Assembly (NCBI RefSeq): GCF_036322705.1
Contig: NZ_AP027270.1
Span: 2,977,501 to 3,041,500 of the forward strand
Direction of reading: 5' to 3'
DNA: 64,000 nt
Origin: Maricaulis maris
Lineage (GTDB): Bacteria > Pseudomonadota > Alphaproteobacteria > Caulobacterales > Maricaulaceae
Shown one piece after another: positions 40,466 to 56,347 of the stretch. The notes below the pieces were generated by a model that was not told where the DNA came from, made no database searches, and was given only the letters and a program-made list of their open reading frames with translations. The position numbers and the translations under genes were made by a program. Each line of letters starts with the position of its first letter. Within the stretch, counting starts at the first letter, position 1.

Positions 40466-41386
40466 CTACCCGCGGCTCACGTCAGCACTCAAGCGACGGC
40501 AGACATCATCGAGTTGCTCGAGGGTCTTGTACTGGACCCGCAGCTCACCGCCCTTGGCGCCATGGCGAATATCGACAGCCAGACCCAGACGGGCGGTGAT
40601 ATCCGCTTCAAGCGAGCGTGTGTCCGCGTCCTTGGAATCATGGCTTCGAGGAGCCGCCTTGGTCTCGGGTGCAGCGGGATTGTGCGCTTCCCGGGCCAGC
40701 TTTTCGGCATCCCGGACCGACAAACCCTTTGCAATGATCAGGTCGGCCAACGCCGCCGGATCGGGAGCGTTGGCGATCGCTCGCGCATGCCCGGCTGAAA
40801 TCTGCCCGTCTGCCAACAAGTTGAGCACGGAGTCAGGAAGTGACAGGAGGCGCATCATGTTGGCGACATGACTACGGCTCTTGGAGACCGCGTGGGCGAC
40901 GTCTTCCTGGGTATGACCGAAGCGATCGATCAGCTGACGATAGGCCTGCGCCTCTTCGACCGGGTTCAGATCCGCGCGCTGGACGTTCTCGACGATACCG
41001 ATTTCCAGTGTCTCTCGGTCGGTGAGCTCGCGTACAAGCGCCGGCACTTCATGCAGGCGGGCCCGCTGAGCCGCGCGCCAGCGGCGCTCGCCGGCGACAA
41101 TCTGGAAGCGCTCGCCGTCATCAACCGGCCGAACCAGGATCGGCTGGACAATCCCCTTGTCCGAGATCGATTCAGCGAGAGCATTGAGTTCTGGCTCGGA
41201 GATCGACTTGCGTGGCTGTTCTGGATTGGGCGCGATCAACTCGATCGGGATCATCCGCACACCATCACGCGACGGTTTGGCACGCTCGGTCGGCGCTTCC
41301 GGAGCGCTATAGCCTTCGGTATCGGTCTCGCCGAGCAAGGCCGACAAACCTCGACCCAGTCGCTTGTTCTTGTCGCTGGCGCTCAT
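40466..41386 (-). CDS. parB: Chromosome partitioning protein ParB (Spo0J)
   Basis: A 306-residue parS-binding CTPase. The N-terminus RLGRGLSALLGE is typical; the ParB/Srx nucleotide domain carries IVQPILVRPV and GERRWRAAQRA, the HTH is around FGHTQEDVAHAVSKSRSHVANMMRLL, and the C-terminal dimerisation segment starts after an Ala/Lys linker. It is translated from the parA mRNA, overlapping by 4 bases. The two perfect parS sites lie within 5 kb. Confidence 0.97.
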   Translation of the reverse strand: MSASDKNKRLGRGLSALLGETDTEGYSAPEAPTERAKPSRDGVRMIPIELIAPNPEQPRKSISEPELNALAESISDKGIVQPILVRPVDDGERFQIVAGERRWRAAQRARLHEVPALVRELTDRETLEIGIVENVQRADLNPVEEAQAYRQLIDRFGHTQEDVAHAVSKSRSHVANMMRLLSLPDSVLNLLADGQISAGHARAIANAPDPAALADLIIAKGLSVRDAEKLAREAHNPAAPETKAAPRSHDSKDADTRSLEADITARLGLAVDIRHGAKGGELRVQYKTLEQLDDVCRRLSADVSRG

Positions 41387-42228
41387 GCCACTTCACCCTG
41401 TTCTTCACGTCGACGCTTGCGTTCCTGCTGAACGATTTCCTTGGCCAGGCTGATATAGGCCTGGGACCCGCTGCAGTGCAGGTCATAGAGCAGGACAGGC
41501 TTGCCCACAGATGGCGCTTCGGAGACCCGCACATTGCGCGGGATGACGGTCTTGTAGACCTTGTCGCCGAAATGCTCCCTGACATCTGCCGCCACTTCCG
41601 CCGACAGGTTGTTGCGGCTGTCATACATGGTCAGAACGACGCCCTGTATGTCCAATCGGGAGTTCAGATGGCCTCGCACCCGCTCCACCGTCTTGAGCAG
41701 CTGTGACAGTCCCTCAAGGGCGAAGAACTCGCACTGCAGCGGCACCAGGATGGCGTCGGCCGCGGTCAGAGAATTGACGGTCAACACGTTCAGAGAGGGT
41801 GGGCAGTCAATCAGGATATAGTCGAGCGCCGCAGCATCCGGTCCGAGCGCATCAAGGCTTTGATCGATGGCACGCTTGAGGCGGTAGGAGCGGCGCTGAT
41901 CATCGGCCAGTTCCAGCTCTGCTCCTGACAACATGACATCGGAGGGGACGATGCTGAGACCCGGCACCACCGTTGGCACCAGAGCGGATTTGAGCGAGTC
42001 CCCGCCTACCAAGACGTCATAGGATGTCAGGGTGCGCATGTTTGGCGGAACGCCGAGCCCGGTCGAGGCATTGCCCTGCGGGTCGAGATCGATGATGGCG
42101 ACCCGCTGCTTGATCGCAGCGAGGGCTGTCCCGAGATTGATGGCCGTCGTGGTCTTTCCGACGCCGCCCTTTTGATTGGCAACAGCAATAACACGGGGCG
42201 CCTTGGCGCGCTGGACGTCATTTGACAC
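41383..42228 (-). CDS. parA: Chromosome partitioning ATPase ParA (Soj)
   Basis: A deviant Walker A ATPase of about 281 residues with KGGVGKTT near the N-terminus, [16 protein letters not shown] and the C-terminal [11 protein letters not shown] helix. The GTG at 42228 is preferred because GAGGTGG lies 5 bases upstream; an ATG at 42240 has no ribosome site. Either start overlaps the rsmG end, so translation is coupled. It drives segregation of the ParB-parS complex near the origin. Confidence 0.96.
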
Positions 42229-42841
42229 GTTCCACCTCATGAATGCGCAGGATCACACCGTCACTGGTACGACTGGGTATGACTTCGTGATCGAATGTCC
42301 AGTGTTTAGCCGCCTCGGTCAATTCATCACGGTAGTTTTGCCCTTTGAAGAAAAGGCCTTGAGCGTTGTTTTTCAACAAGGGCGCGACATAGCCCAATAA
42401 TTTATTCAAAGGGGCAAACGCCCGCGCGGTGATGAGATCGAACCCTTCGGCAGGGTCCAGGGTTTCGACTCGCACGGATCGCGCGTCCGCATCCAGGCCC
42501 AACGCACCAATGGTTTTGCGAAGAAAGGCGACTTTCTTGCCAACGGAGTCGACCATGGTGACGTGAGCCGCCTGGCCGCGATCGCGAAAGCCCAGGGCGA
42601 GCGCTATGCCGGGAAAGCCGGCACCGGCTCCCAGATCCGCGACCTTCATCACGCTTGGCGGGATGTGCTCGAGAAGCTGGTAGCTATCCATCGCATGACG
42701 CGCCCAGAATTGGTCAAGCGTCGAGCGCCCGACCAGATTAGTGTGGGCATTCGTTTCGACCAGCAGGGCCCGCCATTGCTCAAAGCCATCGAGTGTTTCA
42801 CGTGAAACACCGGTTTCCCGGCCAAACGCGTCCCGGTCCAT
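42218..42841 (-). CDS. rsmG: 16S rRNA (guanine527-N7)-methyltransferase
   Basis: A 207-residue SAM-dependent methyltransferase (GidB). The SAM loop is [16 protein letters not shown], with the acidic [15 protein letters not shown] and [13 protein letters not shown] following. It sits between mnmG and parA as in most alphaproteobacteria. A perfect parS site is embedded in its 5' coding part (codons 11-16), where it encodes part of the [14 protein letters not shown] segment. Its 3' end overlaps parA. Confidence 0.96.
42794..42809. promoter_or_regulatory. parS site 1 (perfect, inside rsmG)
   Basis: TGTTTCACGTGAAACA is the perfect 16-bp palindromic parS consensus recognised by ParB. It lies in the coding region of rsmG, about 12.5 kb from the presumed oriC and about 1.4 kb from the parB start. 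Confidence 0.95.
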
Positions 42842-44784: not shown

Positions 44785-44800
44785 TGTTTCACGTGAAACA
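44785..44800. promoter_or_regulatory. parS site 2 (perfect, upstream of mnmG)
   Basis: A second perfect TGTTTCACGTGAAACA lies in the intergenic region between mnmE and mnmG, 2.0 kb from the first. It is positioned where it could also affect mnmG transcription. Confidence 0.95.
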
Positions 44801-54025: not shown

Positions 54026-55063
54026 TCAGGCGCGACCGCGAATGCGCGCCAGTAATTGCTCGACATGGGCCACCGGCACATCGGGCGTAATCCCGTGTCC
54101 GAGATTGAAGATATGGGGCCGCCCGGCCCAACTATCCAGCAAGCGATCCACCTCGCCATCCAGCGCCGCCCCACCGGCCCTCAAGGCGGCCGGATCGAGA
54201 TGACCCTGAACCGGCATGCCCTCGGGCAGGACCGACTGGATCCAGGCCGGATCGACAGCGGTATCAATGGCAATCGCCGTCACACCCGTCTCACGGGCAT
54301 AACGCGGATAGAGCGTGCCCGCCCCGCGCGGAAAGCCGATGATCGGCACATCGATGCCCTTGGCCCGCACTGCGTCGATGATCCGCTTGGTCGGCCGGAT
54401 AATGACGCGTTCAAACAGCGGCTCGGGCAGACCTTCCGCCCAGCTGTCGAACAATTTCAGCACTTCAGCGCCGCAATTGGCCTGCATGACCAGATACTCA
54501 GCCGTGACATCAGCGATCCGGTCCATCATTGCGTCAAAGGCTTCCGGATGCTCCCAGGCCGCGACCCGGGCCTTGAACCGGTCCTTCGACCCGCCACCCT
54601 CGATCATGTAGGTCGCTACGGTCCACGGCGATCCCGCAAAGCCGATCATCGTCGTCGTGTCCGGCAGCTGAGGAACGACGCGTTTGAGCGTCTCCCCGAT
54701 CGGTGCCAGCACGGCCTCGGTCTGATCGAGCCGGAGTTCCTCGAAATTCAGCGGATCGAACGGTTCCAGCTTGGGGCCTTCACCCGTGACGAACCAGACT
54801 TTCCGGCCAAGCGCGATCGGCACCAGCAGGATGTCGGCAAACAGGATCGAAGCATCGAAGCCAAAACGACGAATGGGCTGCAGAGTCACTTCTGCCGCCA
54901 GATCCGGAGAGAAACAGAAATCGATGAAGTTCTTCGCCCGGGAGCGAACCTCACGATACTCGGCGAGATAGCGACCAGCCTGGCGCATCAGCCAGACGGG
55001 CGGTGGCGAGACAGTTTCTCCAGCGAGAACCTGAAGGAGCGGTTTCTTGATCGTGTCTTTCAT
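54026..55063 (-). CDS. hemE: Uroporphyrinogen decarboxylase
   Basis: A 345-residue enzyme decarboxylating uroporphyrinogen III. The N-terminal signature PPVWLMRQAGRYLAEYRE, the DASILFADILLVP strand and GFPRGAGTLYPRYARETG are intact. It heads the hemE-hemH-hemJ operon, and its start faces the presumed replication origin, as hemE does in Caulobacter. Confidence 0.97.
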   Translation of the reverse strand: MKDTIKKPLLQVLAGETVSPPPVWLMRQAGRYLAEYREVRSRAKNFIDFCFSPDLAAEVTLQPIRRFGFDASILFADILLVPIALGRKVWFVTGEGPKLEPFDPLNFEELRLDQTEAVLAPIGETLKRVVPQLPDTTTMIGFAGSPWTVATYMIEGGGSKDRFKARVAAWEHPEAFDAMMDRIADVTAEYLVMQANCGAEVLKLFDSWAEGLPEPLFERVIIRPTKRIIDAVRAKGIDVPIIGFPRGAGTLYPRYARETGVTAIAIDTAVDPAWIQSVLPEGMPVQGHLDPAALRAGGAALDGEVDRLLDSWAGRPHIFNLGHGITPDVPVAHVEQLLARIRGRA

Positions 55064-55345
55064 CGGTCCTGCTTAGGCATCTCTTCCCACAGGATCAATC
55101 TGTCCCTTTCATCTCTCTAAAAGAATTAAAAGGATTGTAGATGGTAGTGGGGGCGTGGATGACGTGGAATATCCCGGTTCTACCCGTTTTTCACGGTCCT
55201 GAAGGTCAAATTTTTCCTTCCACACAATCAATCAGCGGGCGCACGTTGAAAAGAAAATCAGTGATATTTCTCAATAATTTCCCTCGGGAATAAAATGTGG
55301 AATGACAGTGGAAAACGAGCGCGGAACGGGTGCCGGACTGGAACG

Positions 55346-55386
55346 TCATCCACAGGGCTTTCCCCGGAGCGGGTGCATGTGGATAG
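55346..55386. promoter_or_regulatory. Inverted pair of DnaA boxes
   Basis: TCATCCACA (55346-55354) and TGTGGATAG (55378-55386) each differ from the DnaA box consensus TTATCCACA by one base. They point toward each other with 23 bases between them, inside the presumed origin. Confidence 0.6.
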
Positions 55387-55471
55387 TGCTGTGGGTTGCT
55401 CGCGGTAAGACCGGGTACTACTCACACCTGCCGTGGCCTGATTGCCGGGCTGGGGAAAACAGACCAACTTA

Positions 55472-55486
55472 TTAACAAATGGTAAA
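55472..55486. promoter_or_regulatory. CtrA-like site at the right edge of oriC
   Basis: TTAACAAATGGTAAAC is TTAA-N7-TTAA with one mismatch (TAAA), and its reverse complement gives TTTACCATTTGTTAA, close to the preferred TTAACCAT form. It lies 21 bases before the DUF299 gene start. Confidence 0.5.
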
Positions 55487-55507
55487 CGCTAGACCGGTGA
55501 CCGGCTC

Positions 55508-56347
55508 ATGCCCCCCCAGAACTCAGCCTTCAATACCTGCTTTCACATCCACATGGTGTCCGATTCCACGGGCGAGACCCTGATGGAAGTGATGCGGGCC
55601 TCGGTCGCCCAGTTCGAGGGCACCAGTCCGCTGGAACATCTCTATGCCCTGGTGCGATCATCGAAGCAGCTTGATCGGGTTCTCGATGAGGTCGCTGCCT
55701 ATCCCGGCGTGGTCATGTACACGATGGTGAATGCCGATTTGCGGCGTGAGCTGGAAACACGCTGCGTGGAGCTGGGCGTTCCTGCGATTGCTATTCTTGA
55801 CCCGATGCTGGCCACGCTCAGTGCCTATCTCGGACGCCAGGTCGCGAGCCGGGCGGGTGCCCAGCGGTCGCTGGATGCCGATTATTACCGCCGGATCGAT
55901 GCCCTGAATTATGCGATGGCCCATGATGACGGTCAGGGCGATGATTTCGAGGGTGCTGACATTGTGCTGCTCGGGGTCAGCCGCACATCCAAGACGCCGA
56001 CCAGCGTCTACCTGGCGCATCGCGGTTTTCGCGCCGCCAATATCCCGCTCGTGAAGGACGTCCCCTTGCCACCGGCCATTTTCAGCCTGCGCAATCCACT
56101 CGTGGTCGGGTTGACGGCGTCGCCCGAGCGCATTGTCCAGATCCGTCGCAACCGTCTGCTCAGTCTGAATGAGGACCGGGACACGAATTACATTGATGAT
56201 TTCGCGGTCCGCGAAGAGATCCTTTACGCCAAACGCCTTTACGCCAAACACAAATGGCCGACGATCGATGTCACGCGTCGCTCGATCGAGGAGACGGCGG
56301 CCAAGATCATCAATCTTCTTATGGAAAAGCGGAACCTGACGGTATGA
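55508..56347 (+). CDS. DUF299 kinase/pyrophosphorylase (PEP synthase/PPDK regulatory protein)
   Basis: A 279-residue protein of the PPDK/PEPS regulatory family, which phosphorylates and dephosphorylates a threonine of pyruvate phosphate dikinase or PEP synthetase. The start HIHMVSDSTGETLMEVMRA and the P-loop-like GVSRTSKTPTSVYLAHRG are diagnostic. The target cannot be told. It is the first gene right of the origin, as in Caulobacter, and its stop overlaps the maf start. Confidence 0.93.
   Translation: MPPQNSAFNTCFHIHMVSDSTGETLMEVMRASVAQFEGTSPLEHLYALVRSSKQLDRVLDEVAAYPGVVMYTMVNADLRRELETRCVELGVPAIAILDPMLATLSAYLGRQVASRAGAQRSLDADYYRRIDALNYAMAHDDGQGDDFEGADIVLLGVSRTSKTPTSVYLAHRGFRAANIPLVKDVPLPPAIFSLRNPLVVGLTASPERIVQIRRNRLLSLNEDRDTNYIDDFAVREEILYAKRLYAKHKWPTIDVTRRSIEETAAKIINLLMEKRNLTV

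Follow-up and report, generated by a model that had tools for sequence, protein, structure and literature searches.

A hemE–DUF299 gap with a single composite CtrA/DnaA-like site as the probable replication origin of a Maricaulis maris chromosome

Introduction

Where does this Maricaulis maris chromosome begin to replicate, and how is that start tied to the cell cycle? The question is raised by one intergenic gap in the window, i.e., the whole 64,000-nucleotide stretch of DNA analysed here (C1:2977501-3041500, C1 being the single contig of 3,142,398 bp that makes up the chromosome). A preliminary description, made from the sequence letters, proposed the gap as a probable replication origin and suggested that its cell-cycle control may be wired differently from that of Caulobacter. 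The two genes flanking the gap, hemE and a DUF299 gene, are the neighbours of the Caulobacter origin, Cori (PMC1914354).

Materials and Methods

The place of the gap, its skew, neighbours, sites and conservation, and the nearby parS, were established by computation. GC skew was computed for the window and 40 further samples of 20 kb each, which together cover about 27% of the chromosome and include a contiguous 104 kb around the gap. The gap was compared between our genome and 18 congeners. A quick tree of 59 rows was built from hemE fragments; its forks are weak, its outgroup is not one clade, and gain and loss are indistinguishable on it.

In the wider collection, 46 of 170 loci failed a strict two-gene test (hemE plus DUF299), and some short ones were recovered by position. 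Left out after this test were two loci of relatives (L178, L206) and 24 of the 74 more distant named loci (L098-L171), in which DUF299 was not found beside hemE; the pairing is not universal. Thirty further loci lie outside the motif and shuffle count, some named loci duplicate genomes of the G series (L092, L093, L097), and upstream stretches were taken for 60 of 97 other relatives with a DUF299 match.

Results

Location of the Probable Origin

The gap and the genes and sites that bear on its identity are as follows, in window coordinates:

40466-41386, minus strand: parB, named by eye from sequence and place
41383-42240, minus strand: parA, named by eye from sequence and place
42794-42809, no strand: perfect parS TGTTTCACGTGAAACA, in the parAB-gid region
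44785-44800, no strand: perfect parS TGTTTCACGTGAAACA, in the parAB-gid region
54026-55063, minus strand: hemE, uroporphyrinogen decarboxylase (Pfam PF01208, E 5.3e-107), left neighbour
55064-55507 (C1:3032564-3033007), no strand: highly probable replication origin (oriC), intergenic between hemE and DUF299, with a skew switch, DnaA-like boxes, low GC and blocks conserved in 19 Maricaulis gaps
55508-56347, plus strand: DUF299/COG1806 gene (Kinase-PPPase; Pfam PF03618, E 1.3e-89), right neighbour

The gap is bounded by the hemE start codon (ending at 55063, minus strand) and the start of the DUF299 gene (55508, plus strand); as in hemE-type origins, it lies between hemE and COG1806/DUF299. The Pfam matches of these two neighbours bear out the resemblance to the gene context of Caulobacter Cori noted in the preliminary description. 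To the right of DUF299 are genes with Maf, shikimate dehydrogenase, CoaE and exonuclease domains, and the left side also carries ferrochelatase and rho. hemE is 76-77% identical to that of near relatives from Maricaulis isolates and 81% to that of the nearest relative. The gap had also been called the longest non-coding stretch of the window, which is correct: the longest run free of ORFs of at least 100 aa is 55121-55507 (387 bp).

GC skew is positive in every 20-kb sample from the right side of the window, via the contig start, to C1 1.433 Mb, and negative in all samples but one from C1 1.4915 Mb back to the window, the exception on this left arm (C1 2,041,000-2,060,999) being slightly positive at +0.003. 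The second switch falls between C1 1.433 and 1.4915 Mb, an interval that contains the exact antipode of the gap, 1.4616 Mb. A skew minimum elsewhere had been named in advance as the result that would speak against the gap; within the contiguous 104 kb, and with about a quarter of the chromosome sampled, the cumulative minimum is at window position 55117, inside it. Single 4-kb blocks on either side of the gap run against the trend and the minimum is flat, so on our reading the switch is located to a few kb only.

The same data bear on a different placement, in which the gap would be an ordinary divergent promoter region of hemE and DUF299 and the true origin would lie beside dnaA. The origin adjoins dnaA in many bacteria, and here dnaA is found at the contig start (C1 ~530), about 110 kb to the right of the gap. 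However, skew is negative up to the gap and already positive in both samples between the gap and dnaA (C1 3,041,501-3,061,500 and 3,100,000-3,119,999), and parS is near the gap. We consider an origin beside dnaA, disfavoured by the skew, to be highly improbable. Skew, gene context, parS and genus-wide conservation support the original proposal: with high probability, 55064-55507 is the replication origin, which places the origin of this Maricaulis chromosome.

The two parS sites are 10-12 kb from the gap, comparable to Caulobacter crescentus, where parABS lies ~10 kb from Cori. Of 11 congeners, nine likewise have sites of the parS type on this side of the origin, at a distance of 7.6-12.6 kb; the stretches from G007 and G009 ended short of that distance.

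Initiator Boxes and Base Composition

Sites for the initiator and the region it may open are distributed over the gap in the following order:

55154-55162, minus strand: weak DnaA-like box TCATCCACG, two mismatches
55244-55303, no strand: AT-rich block (67-70% A+T) from the composition profile, candidate unwinding region
55307-55315, minus strand: weak DnaA-like box TTTTCCACT, two mismatches
55346-55354, plus strand: DnaA box TCATCCACA, left member of an inverted pair, one mismatch from TTATCCACA
55378-55386, minus strand: DnaA box CTATCCACA, right member of the pair, one mismatch from TTATCCACA
55418-55426, plus strand: DnaA-like box CTACTCACA, two mismatches to TTATNCACA, continuing from the right unit of the GGTNNNACC tandem described below
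55451-55459, minus strand: W-box-like TTTTCCCCA, containing TCCCCA
55469-55477, plus strand: DnaA-like box TTATTAACA, two mismatches, overlapping the CtrA-like site

The inverted near-perfect pair and the weaker boxes of the preliminary description are recovered by the counts, and an AT-rich block is present. With the pair and four further sites, the gap holds six DnaA-like sites within two mismatches against 0.58 expected from the density in the window, and its GC content is 0.507 compared with 0.633 for the window; a box cluster above chance with raised A+T is what a hemE-type origin displays. When the sampled genome is cut into 22,878 overlapping 444-bp segments, only 22 have two or more boxes at one mismatch at most; these form three clusters, the gap being one. 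A place at C1 ~1,184,050 has seven boxes at two mismatches, more than the gap, but none within one mismatch. Across the 19 Maricaulis gaps, TGTGG on the plus strand of the right box of the pair is identical in all, as are the last three letters, ACA, of the box at 55418-55426, whose preceding C is shared by 18. The perfect box TTATCCACA is absent from the gap, all eight copies in the genome being elsewhere. Cori boxes are also relatively weak, belonging to the G- and W-types (PMC4468827; PMC4285127), and TCCCCA is the Cori W-box consensus (PMC4285127).

Outside the origin, ccrM was found in 18 Maricaulis genomes (L237, C1 ~2,322,040; L238-L254), its starts having been found by sequence pattern and those of G007 and G009 placed by hand. 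In 17 of these genomes, a DnaA box precedes the ccrM start by ~65-108 bp. Fifteen of these boxes are exact copies of TTATCCACA and two have one mismatch, with none in G010; the box is often flanked by GANTC and stands just before a TTAACG-N5-TTAGCC element. This arrangement suggests that DnaA controls ccrM directly. One more of the eight perfect boxes is ~340 bp upstream of ctrA (L234, C1 738083), where a divergent ORF, fliI-like by eye, begins.

A Single Composite CtrA/DnaA-Like Site

The genome encodes DnaA, a CcrM-like methylase (found by its RAMA domain) and a protein 87% identical to a CtrA query sequence. In the gap, CtrA is matched by one site:

55472-55486, plus strand: CtrA-like site TTAACAAATGGTAAA, TTAA-N7-TAAA with one mismatch

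The preliminary description had seen only one convincing CtrA site, and the search agrees, since the next candidate (55126-55140) needs two mismatches; the several CtrA sites of a Cori-type origin are reduced here to one within one mismatch. The site shares bases with the DnaA-like box TTATTAACA and stands 36 bp before the DUF299 start. Allowing one mismatch, there is exactly one such site per gap in our genome and in each of the 18 congeners, whereas shuffles gave a mean of 0.22 for the congeners and 0.07 for our own gap. It is aligned at the same place in all 19, 33-45 bp before DUF299 in 18 of them; in G010 the distance to the assigned start is 103 bp, the gap being longer by the start assignment used. 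Box and site together give the consensus TTRTTAACA-N5-TWAA, and this block is the best-conserved 16-column stretch of the 19-gap alignment (identity 0.91 against 0.54 for the mean column). The pattern TTRTTAACANNNNGTWAAC is matched exactly once in our genome, and allowing one mismatch adds a single further match. By sequence, the gap fits the type reported for MCS10, a single CtrA-like site that shares bases with a DnaA-like box in a composite unique in the genome as an exact match. The congener G015 has TTATTAACAATTGGTAAACG at the composite-site position, together with one GGTNNNACC without the tandem and two GANTC.

The other elements of Cori are scarcer. The gap has no IHF consensus within one mismatch and no exact G-box. 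GANTC, not seen by eye, is indeed absent by programmatic count, but this is not significant by itself because only ~1.6 are expected from shuffles, and the absence alone could be chance. The IHF and GANTC sites of a Cori-type origin are lacking, the GANTC absence being within chance. The motif is patchy in the genus, from 0 to 4 per origin, with none in 9 of 19. Unlike Maricaulis, three Sphingomonas, two Rhizobiales and three of four f2 genomes (L112, L122, L130, L158, L160, L199-L201) have 8-11 GANTC in the hemE-DUF299 gap against ~1-3 in shuffles, and one member of the Maricaulis family from outside the genus (L091) has eight in its origin gap.

Could the CtrA-like site serve the DUF299 promoter instead? 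It could, given its mismatch and its position 36 bp before the start, a usual distance for a promoter element, and CtrA would then have no direct control over initiation at this origin. With a stricter CtrA pattern, a site is missing altogether from 9 of 59 gaps, and 31 of the 59 lack one close to the right end. Against this reading, the DnaA-like box is conserved within the same block, and mutants of the MCS10 site reportedly alter ori-plasmid replication. We regard a pure promoter role as unlikely. Because the single site is present in 19 of 19 genomes, overlaps a DnaA-like box and belongs to the best-conserved block, CtrA control has probably been kept and concentrated in one site. The earlier suggestion of different wiring finds only partial support.

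A Tandem Element beside a DnaA-Like Box

Two further elements of the gap share the palindromic unit GGTNNNACC:

55176-55184, no strand: left GGTNNNACC palindrome (GGTTCTACC), only partly conserved in the genus
55404-55422, no strand: tandem GGTAAGACC-G-GGTACTACT of GGTNNNACC-type units 10 bp apart

The stretch 55404-55426 is this tandem fused to the DnaA-like box, the right unit running into CACA. With A or G as the first base of each unit, the tandem with its 10-bp period is present in 16 of 19 Maricaulis gaps (15 in the strict form) and absent from those of G004, G015 and G016; it occurs once in our genome, as does a reversed control pattern. GGTNNNACC was counted 33 times in the 19 genus gaps against 1.9 in mononucleotide shuffles, a number inflated by shared ancestry, since it mainly reflects a single site that 18 of the 19 have ~100 bp before DUF299. 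The counts were 9 against 2.2 in 28 other gaps of the family, 2 against 1.0 in 12 of the order and 6 against 5.0 in 50 named gaps.

In 101 genomes, ours included, the strict tandem GGTNNNACCSGGTNNNACC has 20 places and the reversed control 11. Of the 20, seven fall in origin gaps and seven others no more than ~15 kb away from the origin, while six are distant or on other contigs. This clustering is only suggestive because several near-origin places are co-inherited (G002 with G005; G004 in a near version), and some coincide with gene ends, lie close to them or fall inside parB. Six Maricaulis genomes (L212, L214, L216, L218, L220, L221) have a second tandem of the GGTNNNACC type 7-14 kb away from the origin, located either at parB or downstream of hslU, both genes being named by eye. 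The tandem outside the origin of G010, inside a D-Ala-D-Ala ligase gene (read by eye), was taken as chance.

As to what might bind it, the core of GGTNNNACC is that of a GntR/FadR-type operator; the E. coli PdhR box has the core GGTnnnACC (PMC7660256). A single regulator with an FCD domain was found in the genome; within its 3.4-kb locus, GGTNNNACC is missing upstream of it and occurs once ~1.4 kb downstream, giving no sign of GntR/FadR-type autoregulation there. ParB is not favoured as the binder, since canonical parS exists.

Rather than a protein site, the tandem may be just a side effect of DnaA-box conservation or a hairpin of the terminator type. Away from the origin, some tandems are at or near convergent gene ends (G001; G007 and G009), one group is inside the parB coding sequence, and single copies of GGTMWKACC do not outnumber those of its reversed control (126 against 125 per strand, among the matches listed), hence no sign of a large regulon. 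However, the origin tandem is not at a gene end, and all 19 gaps share GT and ACC in its left unit and GG in its right one, with variable columns in between. We take this explanation as a genuine possibility, a little short of an even chance. It is also conceivable, if somewhat unlikely, that Maricaulis origins carry two composite initiator/regulator sites, CtrA/DnaA and a second at 55404-55426 where a PdhR-like GGTNNNACC regulator, perhaps a metabolic sensor, would compete with DnaA; the further tandems in the origin-parS region of several species would then mean that an extra signal feeds into initiation. Literature matches for the string GGTNNNACC gave none with an origin in the title or the start of the abstract, and the block of tandem plus DnaA-like box is possibly new.

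Discussion

We consider it very likely that the gap is an oriC in which, judging by anatomy and conservation, repression of the Caulobacter type would be reduced to one composite site; experiments on such repression come from relatives. We hypothesize that a few weak boxes surrounding the inverted pair (55346 and 55378) serve for the assembly of DnaA, which would then melt the AT-rich block at ~55244-55303. In the non-replicating cell, phosphorylated CtrA would occupy 55472-55486 and, by sharing bases with TTATTAACA, keep DnaA off. New origins would be segregated by ParAB through the two parS sites.

The wiring does differ from that of Caulobacter, although most of this is already known. Shaheen, Ouimet and Marczynski (2009) reportedly described an origin of Maricaulis maris MCS10, another species, with one CtrA site overlapping a critical DnaA box; the site is said to be unique in that genome, its mutation to raise ori-plasmid replication, and IHF and CcrM sites not to be conserved. 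The origin described here follows a plan already reported for MCS10, the likeness being the single CtrA site overlapping a DnaA box. This plan is uniform across the 19 Maricaulis genomes compared.

Among the 59 rows of the hemE tree, the composite site is found in 23 (all 19 Maricaulis, both g8 and two of three g7) and needs two changes; five more rows (two g4, the third g7, g16 and one f3) have a right-end CtrA site without an exact DnaA-like box. The right-end site could reflect older shared ancestry. Some marine Caulobacter origins also use CtrA, a trait that probably evolved independently (PMC4468827), and the presence of similar composite sites in the corresponding position of two further genus groups of the family bears on this published view of separate uptake in marine and freshwater Caulobacter.

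If the GGTNNNACC element binds a regulator, it would represent an additional input into initiation in dimorphic bacteria. Its core is the same as that of the E. coli PdhR box (PMC7660256), of the GntR/FadR type; the PdhR consensus has AATT flanks, whereas the Maricaulis units are 10 bp apart beside a DnaA-like box.

ChIP-seq in the budding relative Hyphomonas neptunium shows CtrA bound to a site adjoining the origin (PMC7200025). Caulobacter crescentus Cori has five CtrA sites, one IHF site and two G-boxes (PMC1914354; PMC4468827), where the present gap has one CtrA-like site, no IHF match and no exact G-box. What the two origins have in common is the placement between hemE and DUF299, DnaA boxes of relatively low affinity, an AT-rich region and a CtrA site near or overlapping a DnaA box (PMC1914354; PMC4468827).
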